From Gammaproteobacteria bacterium HGW-Gammaproteobacteria-13 (GTDB lineage Bacteria; Pseudomonadota; Gammaproteobacteria; Pseudomonadales; Pseudomonadaceae): a stretch of DNA of 64,000 bases. The stretch lies in the NCBI GenBank assembly GCA_002840155.1, contig PGZH01000003.1, positions 62,001-126,000 on the forward strand, written 5' to 3'. Every line of letters begins with the position of its first letter. Within the stretch, counting starts at the first letter, position 1. The notes below the pieces were generated by a model, which made no database searches, was not told the origin of the DNA, and saw only the letters and a list, made by a program, of their open reading frames with translations. Positions 6,312 to 63,245 of the stretch are shown here, piece by piece. The position numbers and the translations under genes are program-made.

Positions 6312-8237
6312 ATGCGCGGTCCCCTGTTCAGCCTGCTGTCCTGCCTGTTGGTTTCCTCCCTGAGCGTCTCTGCGGCCCAGGCCGCCACCCTGACGCAACA
6401 ACGTCAATATTACGACCAAGCCAAAGCCGCACTGGCCAAGGGCGACAAAGGCCCTTACCAGCGCTACGCCAGTGCCCTGCGTGACTATCCGCTGGAGCCG
6501 TACCTGGCGTATGACGAGCTGACCGCCCGACTGAAATGGGCGAGCAATGACGAAATCGAGAAATTCCTCGCCGAACATGGCGACCTGCCGCAGATCAGCT
6601 GGATGAAGCTGCGCTGGCTGCGCTGGCTGGCCGAGCGCGGCGAGTGGAAAACCTTTATCAATTACTACGACCCGGCGCTGAACTTCACCGAGCTCGACTG
6701 CTTGTATGGCCAATACCAGCTGAGCCATGGCATGCGCGCCGAAGGCAGTGCCACTGCCGAGAAACTCTGGCTGGTGGGTAAATCCCAGCCCAACGCCTGC
6801 GACCCGCTATTCGCACTGTGGGCCGCTGAAGGCCAGCTCACCGAACAGAAGCGCTGGCAGCGCGCCAAACTGGCGGCCGAAGCCCGCAACTATGGCCTGG
6901 TCACTCACCTGATCAAGACCATGCCGACCCTGGGTAATCACGGCAAAAGCCTGCTGGAAGTGGCGCAAAAACCTGAACTGTTGAAACAGACCACCCGTTT
7001 TACCCAGACCGACCCGGCCATGGCCGATGTGGTAGGCCTTGGCCTGCGCCGCCTGGCCCGCCAGGACCCGGAAAGTGCGCTGAAACTGCTCGATGGCTAT
7101 GCCCAGCGCATGAAGTTTTCCAGCGAGGAACAGGTCGCCATCGCCCGCGAAATCGGCCTGACCCTGGCCAAGCGCTTCGATGCCCGCGCCCTGCAAGTCA
7201 TGGCCAAGTACGACCCTGAGCTGCGTGACAACACCGTCAGCGAATGGCGTGCCCGCCTGCTGCTGCGCCTGGGCCGCTGGGATGAAGCCAACCAGCTGAC
7301 CCGGAAAATGCCGGCCGAGCTGGGTAACACCAACCGCTGGCGCTACTGGCAGGCGCGCAGCCTGCAATTGGCGCAGCCCAATAGTCAGGAACCGAAAGCG
7401 CTGTACCAGGAACTGGCCAAGGAGCGTGACTTCTACGGCTTTATGGCCGCCGACCAGGTGCAAGCACCCTATCAGCTGAACAACAAGCCACTGGCGCTGA
7501 GCCCGCAGACCATCCAGAAGGTGCGTAACTCGGCAGCAATTCGCCGTGCCCTGGAGTTCCACGCCCGGGGCCAGGTCGCCGATGGCCGCCGTGAGTGGTA
7601 CAACGTCAGCCGTCTGTTTAGCCGCGATGAAATGGTTGCCCAGGCCCGCCTGGCTTATGAGATGGGCTGGTACTTCCCGGCCATCCGCACCATCAGCCAG
7701 GCGCAGTACTGGGACGATCTGGATGTGCGCTTCCCGATGGCCCATCGCGAACACCTGGTGCGCGAAGCGAAGAACCGCGACATTCACTCCAGCTGGGTGT
7801 TTGCCGTCACCCGTCAGGAAAGCGCCTTTATGGCCGATGCCAAATCCCACGTCGGCGCCATGGGTCTGATGCAGCTGATGCCGGCCACCGCCAAGGAAAC
7901 CGCCAAGCGCTTTGGCATTCCGCTGTCATCACCACAGCTGGCGTATCGCCCGGACATCAATATCCAGCTGGGCGCGGCCTACCTGAGCCAGATCTACGGC
8001 CAGTTCAACGGTAACCGTGTGCTCGCCTCCGCCGCCTACAACGCCGGCCCAGGCCGTGTACGGCAGTGGCTGCGCGGTGCGGACCACCTGTCGTATGACG
8101 TGTGGATCGAGAACATCCCGTTTGATGAAACCCGCCAGTACGTGCAGAACGTGCTGTCCTACTCGGTGATCTACGGCGAGAAGCTCAACGCGCCGCAGCC
8201 ACTGGTGGCCTGGCATGAGCGTTACTTCGACCAGTAA
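6312..8237 (+). CDS. slt: Soluble lytic murein transglycosylase
   Basis: A 641-residue periplasmic enzyme that cleaves peptidoglycan between MurNAc and GlcNAc, forming 1,6-anhydro-MurNAc. A signal peptide (MRGPLFSLLS... ending SAAQA) is followed by a long alpha-helical superhelix, as in E. coli Slt70, and a C-terminal goose-lysozyme-like domain. The catalytic Glu is Glu503 in the motif VTRQESAF; the family motifs GAMGLMQLMP and AAYNAGPGRV follow. Start: the ATG at 6312 begins a good signal peptide and has GGAAG just upstream; a TTG at 6297 is in frame but less likely. A hairpin lies right after the stop. Confidence 0.95.
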   Translation: MRGPLFSLLSCLLVSSLSVSAAQAATLTQQRQYYDQAKAALAKGDKGPYQRYASALRDYPLEPYLAYDELTARLKWASNDEIEKFLAEHGDLPQISWMKLRWLRWLAERGEWKTFINYYDPALNFTELDCLYGQYQLSHGMRAEGSATAEKLWLVGKSQPNACDPLFALWAAEGQLTEQKRWQRAKLAAEARNYGLVTHLIKTMPTLGNHGKSLLEVAQKPELLKQTTRFTQTDPAMADVVGLGLRRLARQDPESALKLLDGYAQRMKFSSEEQVAIAREIGLTLAKRFDARALQVMAKYDPELRDNTVSEWRARLLLRLGRWDEANQLTRKMPAELGNTNRWRYWQARSLQLAQPNSQEPKALYQELAKERDFYGFMAADQVQAPYQLNNKPLALSPQTIQKVRNSAAIRRALEFHARGQVADGRREWYNVSRLFSRDEMVAQARLAYEMGWYFPAIRTISQAQYWDDLDVRFPMAHREHLVREAKNRDIHSSWVFAVTRQESAFMADAKSHVGAMGLMQLMPATAKETAKRFGIPLSSPQLAYRPDINIQLGAAYLSQIYGQFNGNRVLASAAYNAGPGRVRQWLRGADHLSYDVWIENIPFDETRQYVQNVLSYSVIYGEKLNAPQPLVAWHERYFDQ

Positions 8238-8248
8238 CAGCTAAACAG

Positions 8249-8277
8249 GCACGCTCAACTGCAACAGTTGAGCGTGC
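8249..8277. terminator. Hairpin between convergent slt and MOSC genes
   Basis: A perfect 13-bp stem (8249-8261 with 8265-8277, arms GCACGCTCAACTG) and a 3-base loop CAA lie between convergent genes. T-runs are short on both strands, so it is probably a bidirectional transcript end rather than a canonical terminator. Confidence 0.65.
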
Positions 8278-8286
8278 ATTGCCCGC

Positions 8287-9093
8287 CTATTCCAGCACCT
8301 GCACCGGCATATCCAGACGCAATTGCCCTTCGCCACAGGCGATCAGGTTCTGCCCGAAATACACCTCGCCTTCACGCTCACGGTAGGTTTTCAGGGTGGT
8401 CAGCGGTTCGCGATCCGCACTGCGCTCGCCTGTTTGCGGGTCGAGGGTGGTCATGATGCAGCGCGAGCAACCCTTGACCACACGAAACTCCAGCTCACCG
8501 ATACGAATACGCTTCCAGCTGTCTTCGGCATACGCCTCGCTGCCACTAACCACCAGGTTAGGGCGGAAACGCAGCATCGGCAGCGGCCGGCCGACCCGCG
8601 CCGACAGATCATCCAGCGACGCCTGGCCAATCAGCAGCAAAGGGAAGCCATCGGCAAACGCCACCTTGTCGCCCGCCTCGGCATAGGCCGTATCGACCTG
8701 CCGCGCACGCGACTCCGATACCTGCACCAGGCGACAGGTACGGCCGAGAAACTGGCTCAGCCACTGCGCGGCCTGATCACCGGCATCCGGCACTTGCAGG
8801 CTGTCGCGCCAGATGGTCACGCCACGCAGCGGGGCCTGCTCATCCGGCAGCGCCACCTGCAGATCAGCCATACCCGGCGCACTCAGCTGCAGGTGCGTGC
8901 TGCCCAACCAGCGCGCCTGCAGCTGAGTCATCTGCGCCAGCAAGCGTTGCGTAAGGAAGCGCCCGCTTTCGGCATCGACTACCATCCAGCGACGATCACC
9001 CTGCACGCCCAAGGCGTCCAGCGCCGTTTCGCGCAAGGCCTCACCTGCCGCCGACTTCAGTGGATAACGGTACAACCCGGAGAGATGCAACAT
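8287..9093 (-). CDS. MOSC domain protein, YcbX/mARC-like
   Basis: A 268-residue protein with the N-terminal MOSC beta-barrel (LSGLYRYPLKSAAGE) and the C-terminal MOSC domain. The conserved Cys that coordinates molybdenum in this family lies in VVKGCSRCIMTT (Cys209; a second Cys at 212). Relatives (E. coli YcbX, mitochondrial mARC) reduce N-hydroxylated compounds using the molybdenum cofactor. It lacks the C-terminal 2Fe-2S ferredoxin domain that full-length YcbX has. Its ATG overlaps the ATG of the divergent lipoprotein gene (shared CATG at 9091-9094). Confidence 0.9.
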   Translation of the reverse strand: MLHLSGLYRYPLKSAAGEALRETALDALGVQGDRRWMVVDAESGRFLTQRLLAQMTQLQARWLGSTHLQLSAPGMADLQVALPDEQAPLRGVTIWRDSLQVPDAGDQAAQWLSQFLGRTCRLVQVSESRARQVDTAYAEAGDKVAFADGFPLLLIGQASLDDLSARVGRPLPMLRFRPNLVVSGSEAYAEDSWKRIRIGELEFRVVKGCSRCIMTTLDPQTGERSADREPLTTLKTYREREGEVYFGQNLIACGEGQLRLDMPVQVLE

Positions 9094-9571
9094 GAGCCCA
9101 GCTTCCGTTTGGCAAAACGCACTTATACGAGCAACCCGCCGTACCTACAAGCCCGCTTTGGCCCTGCCGCTGCTGGTGCTGCTAAGCGCCTGCAGCGGCA
9201 CCGCGCCAGATAACCTGGGCATCCATAACGGCCAACTGAGCGCCTGCCCGGATTCACCCAACTGCGTAAACAGCCAGGCCAGCGATGCGCGACATGCCAT
9301 TGCGCCGCTGCCGCTGAAAGGCTCTGTTGAAGAAACCCAGGCACGCCTCAAGGCACTACTCAGTGAAGAGCCGCGCGTGACGCTGGTCGAGGAAGCGCCG
9401 GGTTATCTGCGCGCAGAATTCAGCAGCAAGCTGATGCGCTTTGTCGATGATGTGGAATTTATGATCGGCGCGGCCGGAGTAGATGTGCGCTCGGCGTCGC
9501 GCCTGGGCTATGCGGATTTTGACGTCAACCGCGAGCGCATCGAGCGGCTGCGCCAGCGCCTTGGCGAGTAG
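9092..9571 (+). CDS. DUF1499 family lipoprotein
   Basis: A 159-residue protein with a basic N terminus, a hydrophobic stretch and a lipobox LLSAC (lipidated Cys34), so probably a lipoprotein. The rest matches the DUF1499 pattern: CPDSPNCVNSQ near the start of the mature part, and DDVEFMI and RSASRLGYADFDVNRERIE toward the end. Function unknown. The ATG at 9092 has GGAGA eight bases upstream. The start codon overlaps the start of the MOSC gene on the other strand by two bases (CATG is its own complement), so the two ribosome sites and any promoters lie inside each other's coding sequence. Confidence 0.88.
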   Translation: MSPASVWQNALIRATRRTYKPALALPLLVLLSACSGTAPDNLGIHNGQLSACPDSPNCVNSQASDARHAIAPLPLKGSVEETQARLKALLSEEPRVTLVEEAPGYLRAEFSSKLMRFVDDVEFMIGAAGVDVRSASRLGYADFDVNRERIERLRQRLGE

Positions 9572-50746: not shown

Positions 50747-52753
50747 CTATGGCTCCAGACGGCGTTTGATATGTATCCAGTCAACGATCTCGCCTTCCGG
50801 CTTATAGCCACTAACCGTCTCACGCAACAACTGGCGCACACGATCATAGTCATCACGAGCCACCGCAGCTAACAGTTCGCTTAACACCGCCTTGAAGGCT
50901 TCCCACGAAAGGTGCTCTTCATTCGCCCGCATGATCATAGGATGTTCAGTCGGGCTAACGTTATCGCCAATCAGCAACTCCTCGTAGAGCTTCTCGCCAG
51001 GCCGCAGACCAGTAAACTCAATGGAGATATCGCCGTGAGGGCTCTTGGCGGAGCGTAAGCTCAGGCCACTGAGATGGACCATTTTCTCAGCCAGTTCGGC
51101 AATTTTGACCGGTTCGCCCATGTCCAGCACGAATACATCCCCGCCCTTGCCCATGGCACCAGCCTGGATCACCAACTGCGCCGCCTCTGGGATGGTCATA
51201 AAGTAACGAGTGATATTCGGATGAGTGACCGTAACCGGGCCGCCTTTGCGAATCTGCTCATGGAACAGCGGAATAACTGAGCCGGATGAGCCCAGCACAT
51301 TGCCAAAGCGCACCATGGTAAAACGCGTTTTGTTCAGTTGGCGCAGCGCCTTGCCATCCTCGAACAAAACTGGCGCTGACTCGCGACTAAGAGCCTGGAG
51401 CACCATCTCTGCCAGCCGCTTGGTACTACCCATTACATTGGTAGGACGCACGGCCTTATCGGTGGAGATCAGTACAAAATTACTCACGCCGGCCCTGATT
51501 GCAGCTTGCGCAGTATTCAGCGTGCCCACTACGTTATTCAGCACCCCTTCGGCAATATTGTGCTCCACCATCGGTACATGCTTATAGGCTGCAGCGTGAT
51601 AAACCGTGTCCACTTTCCATGCTTGCATCACGTCCAACAACCTATCGGCATTACGGATCGAACCTAGAATAGGCACAAGGCGAAGCGGGAGCGATTCACG
51701 CTTGATACGCGCCTCCAGTTCACTGTGAATGCTGTAAAGATTGAACTCACTGTGTTCGAACAACAATAGCGTTGCAGGTTGGTTGAGCAGAATTTGCCGG
51801 CACAACTCGGCGCCAATGGAGCCACCGGCGCCGGTTACCATTACCACCTGATTGCGGATACAGCGCTCAAACAGTACCTGCTGCGGCGGCACTGAATCAC
51901 GCCCTAGCAAGTCGGCTATATCTACTTCCTGAACATCCTCGACCTTCACCCTACCGCTGGCCAAGTCCATAAAGCCGGGAATACTACGTACATGCAGTGG
52001 AAAATTTTCCAGCTCTCCAAGAATTTGCCGCCGCCTCCCCCGCGAAGCTGAAGGCATGGCCAAGAGAATTTCATCAGCACCGGTTTCATCAATCATTTGC
52101 TGGATATGCTTAGAGGTGTATACCCGCAAGCCCGCAATCATGCGATTAGCAATGCCCGAATCGTCATCAATAAAGGCTACCGGGCGCATAGCGCGTCCCA
52201 ACCTAAGCGCAGCAACCAACTGGTTACCCGCCGCACCTGCACCATATATAGCGACTTTGGGCAAACCGCTTTCACGACCTTGTAACCTAGTTGGCTGGTC
52301 GGCAGAGAACCAGTCCCCCATAAAATACTGGCGCATCATCAAGCGCAGCCCACCGACCAATACCAGACTCAACCACCAGTAGTTGAAGACCATTGAGCGC
52401 GGGATAAGCTTGGGCGCCGCCTGATGCCAATAAACAGCCAACGCCAGTAATAACGCCGAAAGTGTGACAGCCTTGCCGATAGCCAGCAGCGCATCGTTGC
52501 CGAAATAGCGCATAACGGCACGGTACATACCAAACCGAATAAACAGCGGAATGGCGATAATCGGCGCCAGAGCGAACAACCAAGCATGCCCACCGAGGGG
52601 CTCGATAGACTGACTATCGCCCAAGCGCACAACAAACGCCAACCAAAGCGCACTCCAGACAAGCACCACATCCATGGTTACCTGAATAAATCGCTTCTGA
52701 CGTCGTGACATGCTGACCAGACGGCTGCGCAACTTTTCAGCAAGTCTTAGCAC
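50747..52753 (-). CDS. wbpM: UDP-N-acetylglucosamine 4,6-dehydratase WbpM (PglF/FlaA1 family)
   Basis: A 668-residue inner-membrane enzyme. Four hydrophobic segments (residues about 24-150) precede a first nucleotide-binding part (VAIYGAGAAGNQLVAAL) and the C-terminal dehydratase domain, with NAD loop VTGAGGSIGAELCRQI, YHAAAYKHVPMVEHN and the catalytic Met/Lys arrangement in PTNVMGSTKRLAEM, where ordinary SDRs have Tyr-x3-Lys. It converts UDP-GlcNAc to the 4-keto-6-deoxy sugar, the first step to bacillosamine-type and fucosamine-type sugars. The start is a GTG after GAGGAG. Last gene of the O-antigen operon, directly after the aminotransferase. Confidence 0.95.
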   Translation of the reverse strand: MLRLAEKLRSRLVSMSRRQKRFIQVTMDVVLVWSALWLAFVVRLGDSQSIEPLGGHAWLFALAPIIAIPLFIRFGMYRAVMRYFGNDALLAIGKAVTLSALLLALAVYWHQAAPKLIPRSMVFNYWWLSLVLVGGLRLMMRQYFMGDWFSADQPTRLQGRESGLPKVAIYGAGAAGNQLVAALRLGRAMRPVAFIDDDSGIANRMIAGLRVYTSKHIQQMIDETGADEILLAMPSASRGRRRQILGELENFPLHVRSIPGFMDLASGRVKVEDVQEVDIADLLGRDSVPPQQVLFERCIRNQVVMVTGAGGSIGAELCRQILLNQPATLLLFEHSEFNLYSIHSELEARIKRESLPLRLVPILGSIRNADRLLDVMQAWKVDTVYHAAAYKHVPMVEHNIAEGVLNNVVGTLNTAQAAIRAGVSNFVLISTDKAVRPTNVMGSTKRLAEMVLQALSRESAPVLFEDGKALRQLNKTRFTMVRFGNVLGSSGSVIPLFHEQIRKGGPVTVTHPNITRYFMTIPEAAQLVIQAGAMGKGGDVFVLDMGEPVKIAELAEKMVHLSGLSLRSAKSPHGDISIEFTGLRPGEKLYEELLIGDNVSPTEHPMIMRANEEHLSWEAFKAVLSELLAAVARDDYDRVRQLLRETVSGYKPEGEIVDWIHIKRRLEP

Positions 52754-52789: not shown

Positions 52790-53962
52790 CTAACAGGCTT
52801 CCCGCATTACTTCGACCAGAACATCACAGGTCTTATTAATTTCTGCGTCTGTAAGCGTCGGGTGAACCAGGAACATCAAACTAGTCTCGCCTAGATATCT
52901 GGCAATAGCCAAAGGCTCTACAGGACGCATGCCTGTGCCGTCAAAGGCCTTTTCTAAATACACTTCCGAACAAGAACCAGAGAAGCAAGGCACTCCTCGG
53001 ATGGTTATTTCATTGAGAATGCGATCACGATTCCAGCCAGGTAACAAAGCATTAGGCTCGACAAAAACATAACATTTGTAAGCAGCGTGTGTGATGTCAG
53101 CAGACGGCAAAGGCACACGTAAACCAGGGAACACACGTGCAGTCGACCAGATACGTTGAGCATTGGCCAAGCGTTGCGCGTGCCAACTTTTCATACGCTG
53201 CAATTGAATACGACCAATAACAGCCTGAACTTCCATCATCCGCCAATTAGTACCGAAGCTTTCATGCAGCCAACGGAAACCCGGCGCATGTTGACGCTCA
53301 TAAACAGCTTCCCAAGATTTGCCGTGATCCTTGATCGACCACATACGCGACCACAGGGCACGATCATTTGTGGTGACCATCCCGCCCTCACCGCCAGTGG
53401 TCATGATCTTGTCCTGACAGAATGACCAAGCAGCAACATCGCCAATCGAGCCAACCGGACGACCTTTGTAGTGCGCGCCATGGGCCTGGGCGCAATCCTC
53501 GATAACTTTCAGACCCTGCTCGACGGCTAGTGCCATGATCGGATCCATATCGCAGGGCCAGCCGGCCAGATGCACACAAATGATCGCCCGAGTACGCGGT
53601 GTAAGCACAGCGCGGATAGTTTCGGCGGTGATATTCTGCGACTTGCTGTCGACGTCAGCGAAAACCGGTATCGCACCGGCATTGACTATGCTCGATACCG
53701 ACGCAAGGAAGGTGCGCGGCGTGACAACCACCTCATCACCAGCACCAATACCTAATGCCTGCAGAGCCAAATCCAGTGCAACAGTGCCATTAGCCAAGGC
53801 GATGGCATGTTCGCTACCGGTCCATTCTGCAAATTCCTTCTCGAACTCACGACATTCCTGCCCAGTCCAGTAGTTGACCTTGTTGGACAGAATTACATCG
53901 CGCACAGCATTGGCCTCTTCCTCCGTGAAGGACGGCCAGGGGGAGAAGGGGGTATTCAGCAC
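52790..53962 (-). CDS. DegT/DnrJ/EryC1/StrS aminotransferase, PglE-like
   Basis: A 390-residue PLP-dependent sugar aminotransferase. The PLP lysine is Lys185 (AAWSFCQDKIMTTGGEGG), with the ring-stacking region IEDCAQAHGA and a typical ALANGTVALDLAL start. In this context it probably converts the WbpM product UDP-4-keto-6-deoxy-GlcNAc to UDP-4-amino-4,6-dideoxy-GlcNAc, the PglE/WbpE-type step of bacillosamine synthesis; the family also contains aminotransferases for other keto sugars. The start is a GTG at 53962. It lies 36 bases upstream of wbpM. Confidence 0.9.
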   Translation of the reverse strand: MLNTPFSPWPSFTEEEANAVRDVILSNKVNYWTGQECREFEKEFAEWTGSEHAIALANGTVALDLALQALGIGAGDEVVVTPRTFLASVSSIVNAGAIPVFADVDSKSQNITAETIRAVLTPRTRAIICVHLAGWPCDMDPIMALAVEQGLKVIEDCAQAHGAHYKGRPVGSIGDVAAWSFCQDKIMTTGGEGGMVTTNDRALWSRMWSIKDHGKSWEAVYERQHAPGFRWLHESFGTNWRMMEVQAVIGRIQLQRMKSWHAQRLANAQRIWSTARVFPGLRVPLPSADITHAAYKCYVFVEPNALLPGWNRDRILNEITIRGVPCFSGSCSEVYLEKAFDGTGMRPVEPLAIARYLGETSLMFLVHPTLTDAEINKTCDVLVEVMREAC

Positions 53963-54046: not shown

Positions 54047-54667
54047 TCAAGTATGGGGTCGAGCAGGAACACCCACCACCTCCAACCCATCGGCCACATC
54101 AGAAACCACCGCAGCACCGGCGCCCACCATCACGCGACTGCCGATGCACACCAATTGACGCACGCTAGCGCCGATGCCGATCCAACTTAAATCACCAACC
54201 CGCACCCCACCCGCCAGCCGGGCACCAGGGCTGATATGCACCGCATCGCCAAGCATACAATCATGATCGACGCTGCAGCCCGTGTTGAGAATGGCACCTT
54301 GACCGATCTGCGAATCTGCATTCACTACAGCGCCGGCAAACACCACTGAGCCGATGCCCAAACACGCATGGCGGCTGACATAGGAGGCGGGATGAATCAG
54401 GTTAAACAGCCGAGCACCGGCAGCTTGCAGCTCGATCAGTTTAAGCTGTCGGATGCGGTTGTTTCCCATCGCCACCAGTACGCCGTCATAACGCGTCAGG
54501 CTGGCCAACAGAGCGGTCGTATCACCAATTACCGGCCAGGCACCATTGTTCTGCCGCTTAGGCCACGCGTCATCATAAAACTCGACCACCTGCCAGCTAC
54601 AGCACTCGGCAGTATCTGCAACGACCTTGCCATGGCCGCCGGCCCCAAGAATCGCCAGTCGCTTCAA
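54047..54667 (-). CDS. Sugar O/N-acetyltransferase, PglD/NeuD-like hexapeptide enzyme
   Basis: A 206-residue two-part acyltransferase. The N-terminal domain (LAILGAGGHGKVVADTA) binds the UDP-sugar and the C-terminal left-handed beta-helix carries hexapeptide repeats (IGSVVFAGAVVNADSQIGQGAI). The PglD catalytic region SVDHDCMLGDAVHISPGA is present. In the bacillosamine pathway PglD acetylates the 4-amino group. It starts with TTG and overlaps the preceding PglC-like gene by four bases. Confidence 0.9.
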   Translation of the reverse strand: MKRLAILGAGGHGKVVADTAECCSWQVVEFYDDAWPKRQNNGAWPVIGDTTALLASLTRYDGVLVAMGNNRIRQLKLIELQAAGARLFNLIHPASYVSRHACLGIGSVVFAGAVVNADSQIGQGAILNTGCSVDHDCMLGDAVHISPGARLAGGVRVGDLSWIGIGASVRQLVCIGSRVMVGAGAAVVSDVADGLEVVGVPARPHT

Positions 54668-55257
54668 GTGCGAGGGCCTGTGAACTTACTCATCGTCGCC
54701 TCGCCTTCAGCGCTAATTCCATCGCGCAGCAAAACCTTCTTAATGGTCAGGAAGAGTATCTTTAGGTCGAGCCAGAACGATCGGTGGTCCACGTACCAGA
54801 CATCTAGCTTGAACTTCTCCTCCCAGCTCAGAGCATTGCGACCATTGATCTGAGCCCAACCAGTAACACCAGGCCGTACCTCATGCCGACGGTACTGCTC
54901 CGGGCTATACAGCGGTAGATACTCCATCAACAGTGGCCGTGGCCCCACCAGGCTCATATCCCCCCGAAGTACGTTCCAAAGCTCCGGTAGTTCATCCAGG
55001 CTGCTCGAGCGCAAAAAATTGCCAAAAGGCACCATTCGCTCTACGTCCGGTAACAAATTACCTTCCACATCTATAGCGTCACGCATAGTGCGAAACTTGA
55101 CCATTTCAAAAGGTTTGCCATCAAGCCCAGGACGTATCTGACGAAAAAGCACTGGCGCCCCCAACTTATTGCGAATTTTCCACGCCACCATCAGCATTAC
55201 GGGAGTAAATAAGATCAGCGCAGCAAGGCAAGCAACGATATCAAAAAGACGTTTCAT
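54664..55257 (-). CDS. Phosphosugar transferase, PglC-like (initiating sugar-phosphate transferase)
   Basis: A 197-residue monotopic phosphoglycosyl transferase: one N-terminal re-entrant hydrophobic helix (DIVACLAALILFTPVMLMV) with the following KFRTMRDA, the DE catalytic pair in SSLDELPELWNVLRGDMSLV, and GPRPLLMEYLPLYSPEQ. It moves a sugar phosphate, here probably diacetylbacillosamine phosphate, from UDP to undecaprenyl phosphate, starting the repeat unit. It is short, like Campylobacter PglC, and lacks the N-terminal membrane domain of WbaP-type proteins. It overlaps the upstream glycosyltransferase gene by 17 bases. Confidence 0.92.
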   Translation of the reverse strand: MKRLFDIVACLAALILFTPVMLMVAWKIRNKLGAPVLFRQIRPGLDGKPFEMVKFRTMRDAIDVEGNLLPDVERMVPFGNFLRSSSLDELPELWNVLRGDMSLVGPRPLLMEYLPLYSPEQYRRHEVRPGVTGWAQINGRNALSWEEKFKLDVWYVDHRSFWLDLKILFLTIKKVLLRDGISAEGEATMSKFTGPRT

Positions 55258-56389
55258 GCATGCCGTCCTCAGCCAACAAAAACGCCATCAAACGCGCATT
55301 TACCTTCTGCACATCAAACCGCTCTTGCGCCATCAGCAAACTTTTTTCACCCATGCTCGTAATTAACTCCGGCTGCTCAATAAAGCGGAACATGGCTTCA
55401 GCCAGTGCCTGAGGGCAGCGTGGAGGAACCAGAAACCCATTCACATTATCCACCACAGTTTGCCGGCAACCAGGTACATCTGTCGTGATAACCGCCCTGC
55501 CAGCGGCCATCGCTTCCTGCGTACTTACCGGCACGCCTTCACGATAGGACGGCAAAACATAAACACTGGCAAGCTCCATCCAGGGCTGCACAGGCACATG
55601 GCCATGCCATTCAAGAATCCCCTCAGCAACCCAAGCCCGCACATCCGCTTCGGTTAACGCGCCGGGGTTATCGTCCAGTCCACCTAGTAAAACAAAGCGT
55701 GCATTCGGATGGCGCTGTTTGACGATACACGCCGCCGAGGCATAATCCTCGATACCTTTTTCCCGTAACAGACGCGCCACCAATAAAAAGGTGACGGGTT
55801 CAATAGGTGAAGGGATAAGCCGCCAGCGCTCAAGCTCTACACCAATCCCCCCCAACAAAAATGCCTTTTCCTTCCGTAAAGTCCCTGCCGCCAGCAACTC
55901 GTCACGGTCATCCGGGTTAAGAAAAATCGCTTTGTGGGCACAGAGTAAACCCGCCCTATACAAGGCCAATACCAAATACTTCAGCAATCTTCGCTTAAAT
56001 GAAAGCGCCTTTCCTGTCGGAGTAAAGACAAAGCCAAGACCTTCCACCATGGCAATACGCAGAGGAACACCTGCCAAAAATGCAGCAATAGAACCAAAAA
56101 TAACCGGCTTGACAAAATAGCCCAGCGTTACATCCGGCTGAAGCCGACGCAACAAAAGCAACATGCGCCATGTATTAAGAGCGTCACGCAGAGGATTCAT
56201 TCCAGTTCGATCCATAGGGCAATCAACGGGACTAGCCCCCATGGCTAACACTGCTGCACGGCTCCCCTCATCAAAGTTGGGAGCCAAAGCCAAAACATGA
56301 ATACCCCTAGCCACCAGAGCACGAATTAGTGGTGCGCGGAAATTGAGCAACGATGGCGCGTGAGACGTAATTAATGCAAAGCTCTTCAT
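55241..56389 (-). CDS. Glycosyltransferase family 4, PglA-like
   Basis: A 382-residue GT-B glycosyltransferase. The acceptor side opens ALITSHAPSLLNFRAPLIRAL and the donor side has LLVARLLREKGIEDY, LPSYREGVPVSTQEAMAAGRAVITT, the GT4 signature with the catalytic Glu pair. Similarity and position next to the PglC-like gene suggest a PglA-like enzyme that adds the second sugar to the bacillosamine lipid. The donor sugar cannot be read from sequence. Confidence 0.88.
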   Translation of the reverse strand: MKSFALITSHAPSLLNFRAPLIRALVARGIHVLALAPNFDEGSRAAVLAMGASPVDCPMDRTGMNPLRDALNTWRMLLLLRRLQPDVTLGYFVKPVIFGSIAAFLAGVPLRIAMVEGLGFVFTPTGKALSFKRRLLKYLVLALYRAGLLCAHKAIFLNPDDRDELLAAGTLRKEKAFLLGGIGVELERWRLIPSPIEPVTFLLVARLLREKGIEDYASAACIVKQRHPNARFVLLGGLDDNPGALTEADVRAWVAEGILEWHGHVPVQPWMELASVYVLPSYREGVPVSTQEAMAAGRAVITTDVPGCRQTVVDNVNGFLVPPRCPQALAEAMFRFIEQPELITSMGEKSLLMAQERFDVQKVNARLMAFLLAEDGMHETSF

Positions 56390-56398
56390 ATAAAAATC

Positions 56399-57697
56399 TC
56401 AGACGCCAGGTTTATCATCAAGCCCTGCAGCACAAGTTTTCCCAGACAAACCTACAGCAATAACTGCGCCAAGAAACAACCAAAATATACGCTGATATAG
56501 CATCTCATGAAACATAGCCATTGCCCCAAATGACAACAGCAACAAAATAACTGCGTTATTTCTAACACCCCGTTTAGCCGAGAAAAATACAAACCCCACA
56601 AGTGATATAAAAAATGCCGAGAATATTAAAAACCCAAACAAACCCATCTCAGACAAAACCCACAATACACTGTTGTGCTGTACGATTGAAAATCCATATA
56701 CCGCTTCACTACTAGTGTAAAACGCACCCAGTCCAGCGCCGAAAAAAGGGTTCTCAAGCCACATAGCGAAAGAATCTTTCAGTAACTGGCCACGCAGCAT
56801 ATCACTTTCAACCGAGGATATAGCCATAACAACCTTTCCTCTCCCTTCGCTATTCTGCCCCCCCATAGAAAGCAAATCGTTAAAAAAGTAAAAAAAATCA
56901 GGGAAGTAGAAAATCAATACACTTATAATCACACCGCCCGACATCGACCAAAACAGAAATTTCCAGCCTGTCATTTTCATAAAAAAAGCAGCGAGATACA
57001 AAAGCAACATAGTTGCAATACCTGAGCGCGACGAGGTTAAAAACATACTACAAACAAGAACAATCGCGGAAAATAACAAGAAGTTTTGATTCAGTCTTAA
57101 ATTCCTCAAGTACAAAGGCTGAAACGCCAACACTAACGACAAAACAGCAAGGATTTGAAAAGCCAACGCATTGCGGTTACCTGAAAGAGCTGTCAGATAA
57201 CTGAGATGCACTGTACCGCTAGAAATACCTTTAACTATTTCCAAAAACAACATGAAATCACTCAGCAAAAGCATACCAACAAAAAATATAAGCAACAGAT
57301 TAAAGAACCTGAAAAAAGCAAAGAACCCCAACCTATTAACTAGCATTGCCGAAGCGTACAGATACCCCAAAATAACAATCCAACCAATTGCCTTGGTAGT
57401 TGCCCAAGAAATCGAATAATCAGAAAGCAAAGCAGTCAGCCAGCCCGAAGCCAATGCTAAACAGGTTAGCAGCGCAAATATGTTGAAATTTTTTACCTTC
57501 CAGCGAACAGGAGTCTTGGTGTAGAAAAAACCCAGGAGCAAAGTTGACAAAACCAGCATGACAAAAAAATCTGCAAGATTTATGTTTATAGCAAAATCAA
57601 ATAGAACAACGTGAAATTGAACCAACACAAACAGAAAAATAAAAAAAGAAAACAGCCAAACTAACAAGTTTTCCCGACTAGTGATGCCAATATTCAT
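56399..57697 (-). CDS. O-antigen polymerase/ligase-like membrane protein (Wzy/WaaL family)
   Basis: A 432-residue membrane protein with about twelve hydrophobic segments and one larger periplasmic loop (residues about 265-330; SMGGQNSEGRGKVVMAIS), then NPFFGAGLGAFYTS and VQHNSVLWVLSEMGLFG. The NPFFGxG...HNSxL pattern is typical of Wzy polymerases and WaaL ligases. As part of an O-antigen locus, polymerase is more likely. The gene is distinctly AT-rich compared with genes outside the locus, a usual sign of laterally exchanged O-antigen genes. Overlaps the upstream gene by four bases. Confidence 0.85.
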   Translation of the reverse strand: MNIGITSRENLLVWLFSFFIFLFVLVQFHVVLFDFAININLADFFVMLVLSTLLLGFFYTKTPVRWKVKNFNIFALLTCLALASGWLTALLSDYSISWATTKAIGWIVILGYLYASAMLVNRLGFFAFFRFFNLLLIFFVGMLLLSDFMLFLEIVKGISSGTVHLSYLTALSGNRNALAFQILAVLSLVLAFQPLYLRNLRLNQNFLLFSAIVLVCSMFLTSSRSGIATMLLLYLAAFFMKMTGWKFLFWSMSGGVIISVLIFYFPDFFYFFNDLLSMGGQNSEGRGKVVMAISSVESDMLRGQLLKDSFAMWLENPFFGAGLGAFYTSSEAVYGFSIVQHNSVLWVLSEMGLFGFLIFSAFFISLVGFVFFSAKRGVRNNAVILLLLSFGAMAMFHEMLYQRIFWLFLGAVIAVGLSGKTCAAGLDDKPGV

Positions 57698-58593
57698 TTA
57701 CCACCCTCCCTGCCGACAAGCAAAATCGGATAACACATCAAAACAACGGCCATAGAGATCAGGCCAATGAATAAAGAAGCAGCAAGCCCAGCCTCCGCAG
57801 CTCCACCAAGGTAAGCCACAAAAAACATAGATGAAACTTCTCTAAGCCCCCATCCGCCGAAGCTTACCGGCAATGAGGCCAGAAAAGAGACAATGAAAGC
57901 AACCGAAACTATTTCAAGATAATCAGCCTTCGGCAATGCCACGCTAAACATTAGCGCAAAGCACATCATCATCAACACCATACCCAGCGCTACGATCAAT
58001 CCAACTCGAAACAGCAAGAAAATGTTTCGCCAACTTGAATAAACTTTAATAGCTCTCTTTTCAACATCCAAAATTATCAGCCGGTAAAATAAAGCAAGAG
58101 CAACAATAGCTGCAATCACAAATATTATAAAATTAACTAGCCCCGCCCCCTCAACAACTTTCCAGTCATAAAGGTAGAAAAATCCAATAGCAGCAAAAGT
58201 AGCGCTGACAGCACCAGCCACCACACGCTCATATCCTGAGGCGGCTGAATTTTCTATCGCTGACACGCCCAGCTTACTCAAATAAAACTGTCGCCCAGCA
58301 ATTTGCCCGAATACAGGTATAAAAAAAAGTGCACCAATATTTCCGGCGACACATGCTTTAGCCACCCCCATAAAGCTCAGCTGATGACCAAAATCGCGAA
58401 GGATTATCCAGATTCGTAAAAAAGAAAGTAGCACCGTCATCAGAAACAATAGCGCAACAACAGCAATACGCTGAAATTCAAACAAAGGAAGCACTTCAGA
58501 AAAAGCGCTAAAATCCCCCATAGACCAAAAGGCTACGCCGAGCAATAACAGCGAAAAAAACATCAGCGCTGTTTTTTTATTTATCTTTATCAC
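57694..58593 (-). CDS. Flippase-like membrane protein (UPF0104 / lysylphosphatidylglycerol synthase TM type)
   Basis: A 299-residue membrane protein with seven to eight hydrophobic segments, AT-rich like the next gene. The C-terminal motif SLPVSFGGWGLREVSSMFF is the hallmark of the UPF0104/MprF-flippase-like family (AglD-type). These proteins are thought to help move lipid-linked molecules across the membrane. Here it sits where a Wzx flippase would be expected, although it is not a Wzx homologue. Overlaps the Wzy-like gene by four bases, so both are co-expressed. Confidence 0.85.
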   Translation of the reverse strand: MIKINKKTALMFFSLLLLGVAFWSMGDFSAFSEVLPLFEFQRIAVVALLFLMTVLLSFLRIWIILRDFGHQLSFMGVAKACVAGNIGALFFIPVFGQIAGRQFYLSKLGVSAIENSAASGYERVVAGAVSATFAAIGFFYLYDWKVVEGAGLVNFIIFVIAAIVALALFYRLIILDVEKRAIKVYSSWRNIFLLFRVGLIVALGMVLMMMCFALMFSVALPKADYLEIVSVAFIVSFLASLPVSFGGWGLREVSSMFFVAYLGGAAEAGLAASLFIGLISMAVVLMCYPILLVGREGGK

Positions 58594-58855: not shown

Positions 58856-60085
58856 TCAATTGTTCTTACCTTGAAATAATATCGACAGATAGTCGCTGGC
58901 CAGTTTCGAATAGTTGCGATTCTGCAACAACCATTCACGCCCGAGCGAGCCCATCAAGGAACGCTCCTCTTCGCTTCTCGATTTCATGTCGAGGACAGCG
59001 GTGACCACCGCACCAACGTCATTCGCGGGCACGAACACGCCGCACCCTGATTCGTTGATCATAGAGGGGTAACCATTGTAGGAAGCCACAACAGGTTTGG
59101 CCGCCAGCATGTAGTCAATAACCTTATTCAGCGACTGCCCATAATCCCAGACCTTCGAGTCGTGAACCGAAAAATACAGGAGATCTCCTTGCGCAAGCAC
59201 TGCCTGCACCATGTTTCGCGGAACTTTTGGCGCGAAAATAAGGTTGGGAAGGTCACCCCACTGCTTTTCGTAGATATGCTTCAGCGCACCGTCGCCGACG
59301 ATGACGAACTCGATATCCACATGCTCCCGCATGGCTTCGGCTGTTGCAAAAAACACATCCAAGGCGTTGGTGATGCCAATGGTGCCCGCATGCACGACCT
59401 TGAACTTGTTACTGGACAGGTAACGTGCGCTATATTCTGCGGGAAGCGCTGCCACATCGCTAAGATGCTCCTGGCTCACCCCCATCGGAACGCAGTAAAC
59501 CGGACGCTCGTGACCAAGTTCACGCCTCACATGCTCGGCGAGATTTGGCATGGTTCCGACGATTGCATCCGCTTTCCTGTAGGCGAGTCGCTCCAGCCAC
59601 GACAACCCTTTGATAAACAAATTGTTGTTGCTGAACCCTCCCTCCTCGACGATGGTGAGCGGCCATATGTCGCGAACTTCGAATACCAAGCGACACTTGT
59701 ATTTGAGGCGCAGCAACAATCCATTGATGATGGTCAACAGCGACAGACTGGAAACGATCACGACGTCAGGGCGTTTCAAATTGCTCTTGTCGAGCCAAAA
59801 CAGATTCCACTCGAAATGAAACCAGCTCAGAATCCTGCGCAAGGACTTGGCAACCGAGTATTTCATCGTTTTTAGCCAGACGATTTTTACACCATCGGCG
59901 TCCTGCAGCGTTACGCGCTCCTTCAGTACTGGTAGATCCACTAGGTTGTTGGAGTCCGAGCTGATCACAACGACTTGGTAGCCGGCACGCTGCATCTCGT
60001 CCACCAGAAACCAGCCTCGTCCTCCGGGGCTACTCGTGGTCTTGGGTGAAAAATACTTCGTGACGTACCAGATGGTCTTGTTCAT
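58856..60085 (-). CDS. Glycosyltransferase family 4, WbuB-like
   Basis: A 409-residue GT-B glycosyltransferase. It opens MNKTIWYVTKYFSPKTTSSP with the following GGRGW, the pattern of WbuB-like fucosaminyltransferases; the donor side has FKVVHAGTIGITNALDVFF and KVIDYMLAAKPVVASYNG. Start: the ATG at 60085 is chosen because it begins the homologous sequence; the open frame extends 45 bases into the gap. It lies 16 bases after the amidotransferase fusion gene, so the two are probably coupled. In P. aeruginosa a GT of this kind also sits near the amidotransferase wbpG. Confidence 0.88.
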   Translation of the reverse strand: MNKTIWYVTKYFSPKTTSSPGGRGWFLVDEMQRAGYQVVVISSDSNNLVDLPVLKERVTLQDADGVKIVWLKTMKYSVAKSLRRILSWFHFEWNLFWLDKSNLKRPDVVIVSSLSLLTIINGLLLRLKYKCRLVFEVRDIWPLTIVEEGGFSNNNLFIKGLSWLERLAYRKADAIVGTMPNLAEHVRRELGHERPVYCVPMGVSQEHLSDVAALPAEYSARYLSSNKFKVVHAGTIGITNALDVFFATAEAMREHVDIEFVIVGDGALKHIYEKQWGDLPNLIFAPKVPRNMVQAVLAQGDLLYFSVHDSKVWDYGQSLNKVIDYMLAAKPVVASYNGYPSMINESGCGVFVPANDVGAVVTAVLDMKSRSEEERSLMGSLGREWLLQNRNYSKLASDYLSILFQGKNN

Positions 60086-60101
60086 TGTGCCAACCGGCCT
60101 G

Positions 60102-61925
60102 TCAATCTTTGTACAACCGTGGAATTGCATTGATGACCTTGATTACCTCGGTGAAATCCATTCCCAGCGCATCAAGGTACCAGCGAATGTTTTGATAACG
60201 CGGACGGTTTTCCTCACGCACCAACTCGAGCGCACGTTCGCGAGTGATCTCACCCTCACGCACCTGGTTGCTGCGGAAAGTATCGTGCTCGGAGAAGCCA
60301 GCAACTAGATAATAAATATAGTTGTACAGTCCCGCAGTACCGTCGCCGATACGCCAAGTGGTGCTGGTATCGACAGCAAGCTCCCAACCATAGTCGTTGA
60401 TCAGCGTGTCATCGATGGCCTGCTCGTCCCAGCGCCAGTAATCGAAGATGTGATAGTAGTCCTTCTTCTCCGTGAAACTCCGGTAGTACTCGCCAGAGAG
60501 GGTGTCCCAGAGAGAGCTATTGAAATAGCCTGGACTCTTGAGCATCGCTTTAAAACGCAAACTCTGGTATTCCATCTGCTTTTGCCAGCCGTGCATATAC
60601 ACGCGCTTTTCTTCAAAGTCCGGTGGTACACCAAGGAAGCCGGCTTTGAAGTGAGTAACCTCTAGGGGGTTAACCCCCCAGAGGTTCAGACTCACGCCAG
60701 TCTGCTTCTTAACCGTCTCAATATGACGGAAGAAGTGCTTGTCACCCGCAGTTAGAATACTGATCATGCCAAGATGCGGGGCCTTCAACCAAGCGTTGAG
60801 GTTGATCGCAATATTCCTACGCTTCTTGGCGATATCGTCGGCAACGATAATGTTCTCCACACCCAGTTCGGCGCTCATCCGGCTGATATTGCGCCGACCA
60901 AGATCGGTCACCATACCCCAGTCGTAGGTATAGGTAACCGCGTTCATCTTTAGCTCTTTGACAATCAAATGCAGCCCGTAGCAGCTATCACGGCCGCCGG
61001 AGAACGGTACGATGCAGTCGGTAACACCTGCGCGTCGATAGCCCTCTACAAGATTGAAGAGTTCTTCCTTGGGCTTAGGTACATTGCGTGGGGTGTAAGT
61101 GTGACAGTAGTTGCACACACCGTCCGCATCAAAGGCAATGTACGGCATCGTTTCTGGAAGAATGCAACGCGTACAACGACGCAAGTTAGGCTGAGGATAA
61201 AGCAATTGCTTTTCTTCAGACGAAATGAATTGGAAAGGTGGAATCAGGTTGTGAACACGTTGATTATCGTCGGAAACACTGATCTCCGTGGAAGCAGGTA
61301 AATCCAAGATAACGGCGTCTTGCTTGACCTGCTTGATATCCGAACAGCCAATCTGACTGAGCGGGAACATTTCCGAAGAAAAGCAGACACCTTCCTGAGC
61401 AGTGCCAACATACAGGCTGCCATTATTGGAAAACAGTAGCGCCTTACCCATACGTGGGATAACGATGGCGCATGCAACGACCCCAACACACAACCCCAGC
61501 ACCTTGTGCGCTAGTCCGTCGAGATCATCGCCCGACTCATCCAGGTGTTGCTCGGCAATGGCGGCGATCACCTCACTATCGATTTCGAGACCACGGGTGG
61601 GTTTGATGTGATTCCACACCTCACCATCATTCACGATGATGCCGTTGTGGATAACGCAAATACCGCCACGAACAACCGGCTGGTTGTCGGAAAGACCGTT
61701 AGTGATCAAACGGCTATGACCAAAGACAAAAGCAGAGTCAAACGGCTTAACCCGCGAGATCAGTTTTTTGATGTCGTAGTCGGCTCGTTTAACTTGATAA
61801 CCCGAACGATCCGCATAGATCAGACCACTGGAATCACGCCCACGCTGCCTCGCATGCAGAGCCAACGTCATCAAGCTTTGTTGGTTAACTTTTTCCCTGG
61901 CGATAAAACCAAAAATTCCACACAT
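60102..61925 (-). CDS. Class II glutaminase fused to WbpG-type N-acetyl-sugar amidotransferase
   Basis: A 607-residue fusion. Residues 1-235 form a class II glutamine amidotransferase: nucleophile Cys2 (MCGIFGF), HARQRGRDSSG and the oxyanion-hole Asn94-Gly95 (VIHNGIIVND). Residues 243-607 form an N-acetyl-sugar amidotransferase of the WbpG/PseA type: a zinc site with Cys251, Cys254, Cys271 and Cys274 (CTRCILPETMPYIAFDADG) and an ATP PP-loop SGGRDS (309-314). WbpG normally gets ammonia from separate HisH2 and HisF2 proteins to turn an acetamido into an acetamidino group; here the glutaminase is fused on. No hisH or hisF is present in the window. Confidence 0.9.
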   Translation of the reverse strand: MCGIFGFIAREKVNQQSLMTLALHARQRGRDSSGLIYADRSGYQVKRADYDIKKLISRVKPFDSAFVFGHSRLITNGLSDNQPVVRGGICVIHNGIIVNDGEVWNHIKPTRGLEIDSEVIAAIAEQHLDESGDDLDGLAHKVLGLCVGVVACAIVIPRMGKALLFSNNGSLYVGTAQEGVCFSSEMFPLSQIGCSDIKQVKQDAVILDLPASTEISVSDDNQRVHNLIPPFQFISSEEKQLLYPQPNLRRCTRCILPETMPYIAFDADGVCNYCHTYTPRNVPKPKEELFNLVEGYRRAGVTDCIVPFSGGRDSCYGLHLIVKELKMNAVTYTYDWGMVTDLGRRNISRMSAELGVENIIVADDIAKKRRNIAINLNAWLKAPHLGMISILTAGDKHFFRHIETVKKQTGVSLNLWGVNPLEVTHFKAGFLGVPPDFEEKRVYMHGWQKQMEYQSLRFKAMLKSPGYFNSSLWDTLSGEYYRSFTEKKDYYHIFDYWRWDEQAIDDTLINDYGWELAVDTSTTWRIGDGTAGLYNYIYYLVAGFSEHDTFRSNQVREGEITRERALELVREENRPRYQNIRWYLDALGMDFTEVIKVINAIPRLYKD

Positions 61926-62108: not shown

Positions 62109-63245
62109 TCAGTGGTTAGTCGTCGATAGGCCCTGCTGGTACAGCTCAACCAACTTTTTTTCCTGCGCCTGCCAGCTCAACGGCGCCAGGTTCGCGAACT
62201 TGAATGTTGATTGCGAACGCTCAAGCCTCAAGATGGCATCGCGGACATCGAGGGCACGCAGTTTACAGCATTCGCCTACGTCATACTCCGTAAGCAAAGC
62301 ACGAATATCGGGAAAATCTGATGCAAGAACCGGAACACCTGCGAAGCAATATTCGAATAGTTTGTTCGGCAAGCAGTAGTAGTCACTGAGCGAGACATCT
62401 TCGACTAGGCAAAGGCCGAAGTCTGCAGATTGCGCAATAGGCACAACCTGGGAATGAGGTACAGCACCATGCACATGCATGTTCGGATGCTGGGCGGCAA
62501 GACGCTTGAGCTCCTCGCTCAAATCGCCATAACCGAGGAACACCACATGCGAGGAAACCTGAGGATCCTTGAAAGCCTCGGCCAGCAGATCAATGCCTCG
62601 ACCATGGCCGAGGATGCCCACATAAATGAATATCTTGCTCTCGACCGGTATGGAAAACATCTTACGCAGATAATCTTCATCTTGGTGTCGCGCTTCAAAA
62701 AATAAGGGCGAATTTAAAATCACCGCCGAGCGTTTTGGGCCAATGTTCTCCTGGTACCAACGCTCAATGGATGGACTAACCACGATTAAAGCATCGACAA
62801 AACGCCAAAGGAGTTTTTCCACGCGCAACGTCAAAATACCTTGTAGCTTAGTTAGCCCGTTGCGATTGGACTCTAGCTCGTGAGCGTCGTAGACCAGCTT
62901 GGCACCGGTCAGAAATTTGACTATGCAACCAAGCGGAAGCACCAAGGTGTCGTGACAGTGAATGACATCGGGGCGCTCGCGAACCGCTCGCGGCAGCATC
63001 TTGCCGACCAGTTCGAACAGGGTGACGACGTGCCGCAAGGTTCGGGGCAAGAAATTTAGCTTACGCGAGCGTAGATTGAGTGCCGTGATGTCAGCCGCAA
63101 AGGGAACGGCTGTCTTCTGCGCCCCCTCATCCAGGACGACACCAATACCACTGACTGTGTACCCCGCGGTGACCAATGCACCCATTTCTTTGAGAATTCG
63201 AGAGTCGAACTCAATATCCGTATGGGTTAAATGTAGATTTTTCAT
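62109..63245 (-). CDS. Glycosyltransferase family 4
   Basis: A 378-residue GT-B glycosyltransferase. It opens MKNLHLTHTDIEFDSRILKE, the acceptor domain has DVIHCHDTLVLPLG and LVYDAHELESNRNG, and the donor domain has IFIYVGILGHGRGIDLL and CLPNKLFEYCFAGVPVLASD. The sugar and linkage are unknown. It is the first complete gene of the polysaccharide operon in the direction of transcription; what precedes it is gene-free or degraded, so the operon promoter may lie in 63246-63500. Confidence 0.86.
   Translation of the reverse strand: MKNLHLTHTDIEFDSRILKEMGALVTAGYTVSGIGVVLDEGAQKTAVPFAADITALNLRSRKLNFLPRTLRHVVTLFELVGKMLPRAVRERPDVIHCHDTLVLPLGCIVKFLTGAKLVYDAHELESNRNGLTKLQGILTLRVEKLLWRFVDALIVVSPSIERWYQENIGPKRSAVILNSPLFFEARHQDEDYLRKMFSIPVESKIFIYVGILGHGRGIDLLAEAFKDPQVSSHVVFLGYGDLSEELKRLAAQHPNMHVHGAVPHSQVVPIAQSADFGLCLVEDVSLSDYYCLPNKLFEYCFAGVPVLASDFPDIRALLTEYDVGECCKLRALDVRDAILRLERSQSTFKFANLAPLSWQAQEKKLVELYQQGLSTTNH

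Follow-up and report, generated by a model that had tools for sequence, protein, structure and literature searches.

A glutaminase and an amidotransferase encoded in a single frame

The DNA analysed here (the window) is a 64,000-nucleotide stretch of contig PGZH01000003.1 from Gammaproteobacteria bacterium HGW-Gammaproteobacteria-13 (the host). The gene in question, referred to below as the fusion, is a 607-residue open reading frame on the minus strand (61925-60102) in which a class II glutaminase is followed by a domain of the N-acetyl-sugar amidotransferase (NASAT) kind. Its coordinates are exactly those reported in the first-pass annotation of this DNA, which had not stated the strand. An in-frame stop codon on the 5' side leaves at most 10 additional codons (open frame of 617), the Met-Cys start is retained in nearly all of 22 aligned relatives, and the host genome (4.55 Mb in 26 contigs) contains no further match to the gene. 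Its features are as follows.

60102..61925, minus strand: fusion gene, class II glutaminase plus NASAT-like amidotransferase, 607 aa (open reading frame, Pfam, NCBIfam, structure model)
61281..61925, minus strand: class II glutaminase half, about residues 1-215
61920..61922, minus strand: Cys2 codon, presumed nucleophile once Met1 is removed (sequence, conservation)
60105..61190, minus strand: NASAT half, residues 246-607
61104..61175, minus strand: four-cysteine motif (Cys251, 254, 271 and 274), predicted zinc site
60984..61001, minus strand: PP-loop SGGRDS, residues 309-314, predicted ATP site

The N-terminal half scores above the Pfam cut-offs for both GATase_6 (32.9 bits, cut-off 27; residues 64-185) and GATase_7 (25.6 bits, cut-off 25; residues 76-189), and it carries the N-terminal Cys, conserved Arg, Asn-Gly pair and Asp of a class II glutaminase domain, so that the complete glutaminase read earlier from Cys2 and Asn94-Gly95 is borne out. 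We presume from GlmS, PurF and AsnB that Cys2 is the nucleophile, and from GlmS and AsnB that the other conserved residues play their usual catalytic roles. The C-terminal half contains the CxxC...CxxC and SGGxDS motifs by which NASATs are defined (PMC10607449), and it matches the NCBIfam WbuX profile (TIGR03573) over residues 250-589 (E 4e-37) with 128.3 bits, below the curated cut-off of 203.2, which places it as a related but separate branch of the NASAT kind. Against the asparagine synthetase (TIGR01536) and GlmS (TIGR01135) profiles the protein reaches a weak 34.7 bits (cut-off 267.1) and 60.2 bits (cut-off 418.05), respectively, and Pfam finds in it neither a sugar-isomerase (SIS) domain at E 0.001 nor a PRTase domain. 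Six solved structures are matched by its sequence at E 0.1, namely the Legionella NASAT 8WEX and five GlmS chains.

An AlphaFold model built from an 89-sequence input was confident (pLDDT 92.6, pTM 0.92) and superseded an earlier model, made from 22 close relatives, in which the C-terminal half was poor (mean pLDDT 71.7). In the model, residues 246-607 adopt the fold seen in the crystal structure of the Legionella NASAT (PDB 8WEX), a protein that shares the four cysteines and the PP-loop, contains zinc (PMC10607449), and is devoid of a glutaminase half. The glutaminase half resembles GlmS in both sequence and structure comparison; GlmS and PurF share with the fusion the fold and motifs of an N-terminal Cys glutaminase, while their acceptor halves are different in kind. 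The WbpG-type assignment made earlier for the C-terminal half thus holds for its four cysteines, its SGGRDS loop and its fold, and has to be relaxed as regards the family score and the branch to which the domain belongs; to 13 aligned WbpG-type proteins the fusion shows 21-25% identity.

Conservation and distribution of the fusion

We aligned 75 fusion proteins, 39 of them (the window protein included) at no less than 63% identity to the window protein and 36 at 37-44%. Arg72, Asn94, Gly95, Asp116, the four cysteines and SGGRDS are present in all 75, and Cys2 in 73, the other two having N-terminal gaps; loss of Cys2 among homologues, which the first-pass annotation had named as a finding that would contradict it, was thus not seen. 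Nei-Gojobori dN/dS values were 0.03-0.08 for the glutaminase half against four relatives and 0.013-0.020 for the C-terminal half in three of them, the synonymous distance being saturated in the fourth; the values are rough, as this distance exceeded 1 in three of the four comparisons. Both halves are, on this rough measure, under purifying selection.

A tree of the NASAT half was built from 63 rows, taking 31 of the 75 fusions and 6 of the 13 WbpG-type proteins from the alignment and omitting seven of 30 stand-alone loci (L111, L113, L114, L115, L117, L119 and L128), where no SGGxDS frame spans the locus centre. A branch with SH-aLRT 99 sets the 31 fusion rows apart from all others, which is consistent with a single fusion event, and these rows split into a near branch (at least 63% identity to the window protein) and a far branch (37-44%); several branches are long, so that placements outside the fusion clade are unsure.

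Relatives of the fusion are encoded in at least 253 of 290 pattern-matched stretches drawn from 84,980 species genomes. The best 80 loci come from Pseudomonas, Xenorhabdus, Vibrio, Chryseobacterium, Devosia and others, with many metagenome bins among them whose labels may be wrong, and the fusion occurs in at least two phyla. Its distribution is patchy: 4 of 397 genomes in a phylum sample (E 1e-60), 8 of 398 in a family sample (fusion-length match, 129-136 bits; four of the eight also with a stand-alone NASAT above the cut-off), and 2 of 5426 E. coli genomes (blastn, with a Xenorhabdus copy as query). Among plasmids, 135 records gave any match and 3 a match spanning at least 80% of the protein; a phage search gave none. 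One relative (G646:C2:519637-521451; 65% identity) has an internal stop codon in the match and is perhaps a decayed copy.

Independence of HisF2

In better-known bacteria the formation of amidine sugars is split among three proteins. A Sphingomonas cluster in which WbuX, HisF2 and HisH are separate genes is described in PMC11340318. The first-pass annotation had read the fusion as a self-contained enzyme that replaces HisH2 and HisF2, and had named the presence of both genes beside it as evidence to the contrary; they were looked for in the host genome and not found. Full-length HisA and HisF matches occur there at one place only (contig C17), adjoined by one of the eleven class I glutaminase matches in the genome. 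The three other PF00977 matches are weak and span only some 50 positions, no HisA/HisF-type match exceeds the AglZ/HisF2 cut-off, and neither a second full-length HisF nor a NASAT other than the fusion was found in the host genome.

Comparison of the fusion with hisF2 across genomes, which had been proposed earlier as a check, was carried out on 50 fusion genomes from the best 80 loci. The host is not among these 50, and the 30 loci left out are those on short contigs (L027, L028, L051, L060, L066) or of lower identity (L072-L096). HisF2 exceeds the cut-off in 18 of the 50, every one of which belongs to the 19 genomes that also have a stand-alone NASAT above the cut-off, while none of the 31 fusion-only genomes has it (Fisher p 1e-12). 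In the exception among the 19 (G380), a HisF-like gene below the cut-off begins 0.8 kb from the NASAT pair. On the best fusion tree the stand-alone NASAT undergoes at least 14 changes of state by parsimony, 9 of them forced by starred branches, and HisF2 changes along with it in 8-9 of 9 independent pairs and never against it (sign test p 0.004-0.008). Of 41 class genomes that carry a stand-alone NASAT, examined as a control, 34 have a HisF-like gene within 5 kb, and the seven exceptions have one at 10-11 kb (two genomes), at 51 kb (one) or none on the contig (four). HisF2 therefore follows the stand-alone enzyme, and the fusion, which occurs with no second HisF in the host and with no HisF2 above the cut-off in any of the 31 fusion-only genomes, does without it. 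That the fusion supplies its own ammonia is well supported by this genomic evidence.

The same comparison revealed that the fusion is more than a stand-in. Fifteen of the 19 genomes carry the two enzymes on a single contig, at a distance of 2-7 kb in 13 cases and of 21-23 kb in the other two; the fusion is thus frequently a parallel enzyme and not a substitute. In L044 (8457-11827), the fusion is immediately preceded by HisH- and HisF-type genes and the stand-alone NASAT is 21 kb distant, a gene order that hints at possible cross-supply of ammonia, and two loci outside the 50 (L095 and L083) have a stand-alone NASAT near the fusion with no HisH or HisF within the fetched stretch, which for L083 starts only 4 kb before the fusion. 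These three loci blur the picture, in that the fusion and the stand-alone system may share an ammonia source. Plain replacement of HisH2 and HisF2 was dropped, since HisH/HisF-like pairs occur inside fusion loci; the self-contained character of the enzyme stands as regards its independence of HisF2 and the lack of a second HisF in the host, and has to be qualified by its frequent coexistence with a stand-alone NASAT, for which two substrates or two positions are the likeliest explanation. The first-pass interpretation as a whole is thus partly supported.

Two other arrangements were seen along the way. In L133:8359-10446 and L134:919-3051, both from class genomes, HisF-like and NASAT domains share one open frame (696 and 711 aa), which links the amidotransferase to its ammonia partner in a different manner. 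In L132:4749-7727 (minus strand), a 993-aa frame running to the contig end looks, by eye, like a nonribosomal peptide synthetase whose apparent adenylation domain contains an inserted NASAT-like PP-loop domain.

Association with WbpA/B/D/E-type genes

Upstream of the window, on the locus stretch L015, lie WbpE-, WbpD-, WbpB- and WbpA-type genes, named by family. Such genes make 2,3-diacetamido-hexuronic acid. In P. aeruginosa they build O-antigen monomers together with wbpG (PMC8319346). A WbpD homologue (best matches 52-95% identity) was found in 45 of the 50 fusion genomes, including 27 of the 31 fusion-only genomes, and it lies within 30 kb of the fusion on the same contig in 36. At an equal threshold it was found in 31 of 232 control genomes, three of which carry fusions, and at no less than 50% identity in 26 of 232; the control samples one class and the fusion genomes span phyla, which weakens the comparison.

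The uronate route together with the fusion is seen most cleanly in L135, an O-antigen cluster of E. coli, whose galF-gnd interval contains genes for a Gfo/Idh/MocA protein (24% identity to WbpB), TviB (33% to WbpA), WbpD-like (76%) and WbpE-like (73%) proteins, wzx, wzy, one glycosyltransferase of family GT4, a WecB-type 2-epimerase, the fusion (72%), a homologue of GT4b (58%), the glycosyltransferase that follows the fusion in the window, and two frameshifted transposase genes; neither a further special sugar pathway nor a NASAT or HisH2/HisF2 is annotated in that interval. Taken together, the company of WbpD (45/50 versus 31/232) and the E. coli locus point to 2,3-diacetamido-hexuronic acid as the substrate.

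Neighbouring genes in the window

Locus counts refer to 82 loci, that is, the best 80 plus L015 (the locus of the window itself) and L130 (from the same genome as L020). The genes around the fusion, all on the minus strand, are as follows.

62109..63245, minus strand: glycosyltransferase GT4a, upstream of the fusion (Pfam; same cluster in 28 of 82 loci)
58856..60130, minus strand: glycosyltransferase GT4b; the listed frame overlaps the fusion end, true start likely 60085
57694..58593, minus strand: LPG_synthase_TM-type membrane protein (Pfam)
56399..57697, minus strand: Wzy_C polymerase/ligase-type membrane protein (Pfam)
55241..56389, minus strand: third GT4 glycosyltransferase (Pfam)
54664..55257, minus strand: initiating sugar-phosphate transferase, Bac_transf, PglC-like (Pfam; cluster 2 homologues in 47 of 82 loci)
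54047..54667, minus strand: PglD/NeuD-type acetyltransferase (Pfam; NCBIfam, 216.9 bits over a cut-off of 160.8; cluster 4 in 34 of 82 loci)
52790..53962, minus strand: DegT-type aminotransferase, PglE/PseC-like (Pfam, NCBIfam; cluster 6 in 30 of 82 loci)
50747..52753, minus strand: WbpM-like nucleotide-sugar dehydratase, Polysacc_synt_2 (Pfam; cluster 5 in 33 of 82 loci)

GT4b is the commonest gene after the fusion, directly downstream of it in 53 of the 82 loci; its E. coli homologue aligns from residue 16, which suggests a start at 60085, just 3' of the fusion stop. The PglC-, PglD-, PglE- and WbpM-type genes are likely to serve in making the first sugar of the repeat unit and in loading it. 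Two proteins of the cluster, both encoded on the minus strand of L015 (5944-7698, 584 aa; 7944-9116, 390 aa), have no Pfam match; the first may resemble glucuronyl C5-epimerases.

Proposed reaction and alternatives

Given the conserved motifs, the lack of a second HisF or another NASAT in the host, the independence of HisF2 and the WbpA/B/D/E-type company, we consider that the fusion probably converts the 3-N-acetyl group of UDP-linked 2,3-diacetamido-hexuronic acid into an acetamidino group, using ammonia that it derives itself from glutamine; the amidine product and the diacetamido-hexuronic acid substrate are both good predictions. Cys2 would split glutamine and release ammonia, and the PP-loop half would adenylate the N-acetyl oxygen with ATP, yielding AMP and pyrophosphate. 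This AMP route is the one proposed for NASAT in PMC10607449, where little is said to be known of the function of the family. The ammonia would then travel inside the protein and displace AMP to give the amidine, and GT4b or GT4a would attach the amidine sugar to a repeat unit that the PglC-like transferase had started. In clusters that also contain a WbpG/HisH2/HisF2 set, the fusion would likely serve a second sugar or position.

Several observations weigh against this assignment of chemistry and substrate. The score of the C-terminal half below the WbuX cut-off and its deviation from WbpG at many otherwise conserved positions of the alignment could mean a different acceptor or chemistry. Rigid superposition of the fusion on asparagine synthetase matched only about one domain (171 residues), and hence no known tunnel is transferable to it. 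Four of the 31 fusion-only genomes gave no WbpD match. An Agrobacterium plasmid locus has the fusion with wecB and asnB and no WbpD-type gene evident in 26 kb, and the far-branch fusions (about 40% identity; L131:7398-11319 and L136:12001-18821), one of which bears the public name 7-cyano-7-deazaguanine synthase, directly adjoin asnB-like genes and glycosyltransferases, and wbp genes are not in view there; in G204, however, a far-branch genome, a different contig carries a WbpD homologue. For no member of the family did we find an activity, a product or a sugar structure.

Among the alternatives, the fusion might amidate the C6 carboxyl of diacetamido-hexuronic acid in the manner of asparagine synthetase, giving a uronamide and no amidine. 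We regard this as unlikely, even though the substrate genes would fit it equally well and the weak TIGR01536 match goes with a domain order, class II glutaminase-type and then PP-loop, that is also the order of asparagine synthetase B and beta-lactam synthetase. Unlike asparagine synthetase B, however, the fusion has an acceptor half that is nearest to NASAT in sequence and fold and carries the four-cysteine motif, its AsnB score is far under the cut-off, and separate asnB-like genes near some fusions suggest that the job is already taken there. A Tannerella glycan contains ManNAcCONH2 and its cluster encodes an AsnB-domain protein, for which the authors nevertheless suggest a role in forming the acetamidino group (PMC6120980); this is the nearest published idea to the one advanced here.

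It is also conceivable, but in our judgement improbable, that the amidine is formed on some other N-acetyl sugar, such as a 2,4-diamino sugar of the PglC/D/E type, with WbpA/B/D/E as bystanders. The frequency of PglC-, PglD-, PglE- and WbpM-type genes after the fusion would agree with this, and coexisting WbpG-type enzymes may already serve the uronate, whereas the E. coli locus keeps the fusion and the WbpD/WbpE route with no PglC-, PglD- or WbpM-type gene annotated from galF to gnd. We give almost no credence to the notion that the fusion is a relative of glucosamine-6-phosphate synthase or asparagine synthetase, as its GlmS-like glutaminase half and its public names (glucosamine 6-phosphate synthetase, glucosamine--fructose-6-phosphate aminotransferase, predicted glutamine amidotransferase or hypothetical protein, most entries being nameless) would have it, because the profile scores, the missing sugar-isomerase domain and the NASAT-like fold of the C-terminal half already contradict it.

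Significance

The fusion is a real, conserved and misnamed variant of a known enzyme kind. It has in common with WbpG-type proteins the PP-loop and four-cysteine amidotransferase and the WbpA/B/D/E-type company, and differs from them in being a single chain with a class II glutaminase that, in 31 of the 50 fusion genomes, occurs with no HisF2. In the portion of the open-licence PubMed Central literature covered, we found no description of a glutaminase-NASAT fusion.

More tentatively, and at somewhat less than even chances, we suggest that bacteria possess two amidine machines with unrelated ammonia sources, one being the three-protein NASAT/HisH2/HisF2 set and the other an old single-chain glutaminase II-NASAT that would have arisen once and spread across phyla on surface-glycan clusters, often beside the first, such that one repeat unit could hold two differently made amidines.

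Amidine sugars give surface glycans positive charge. If the proposed activity is correct, the HisF2 barrel would be shown to be dispensable for amidine formation, the HisF2-free, one-protein version would offer a far simpler in vitro assay system for the chemistry, and amidine sugars would become predictable in clusters where the gene is now named glucosamine-6-phosphate synthetase or hypothetical.
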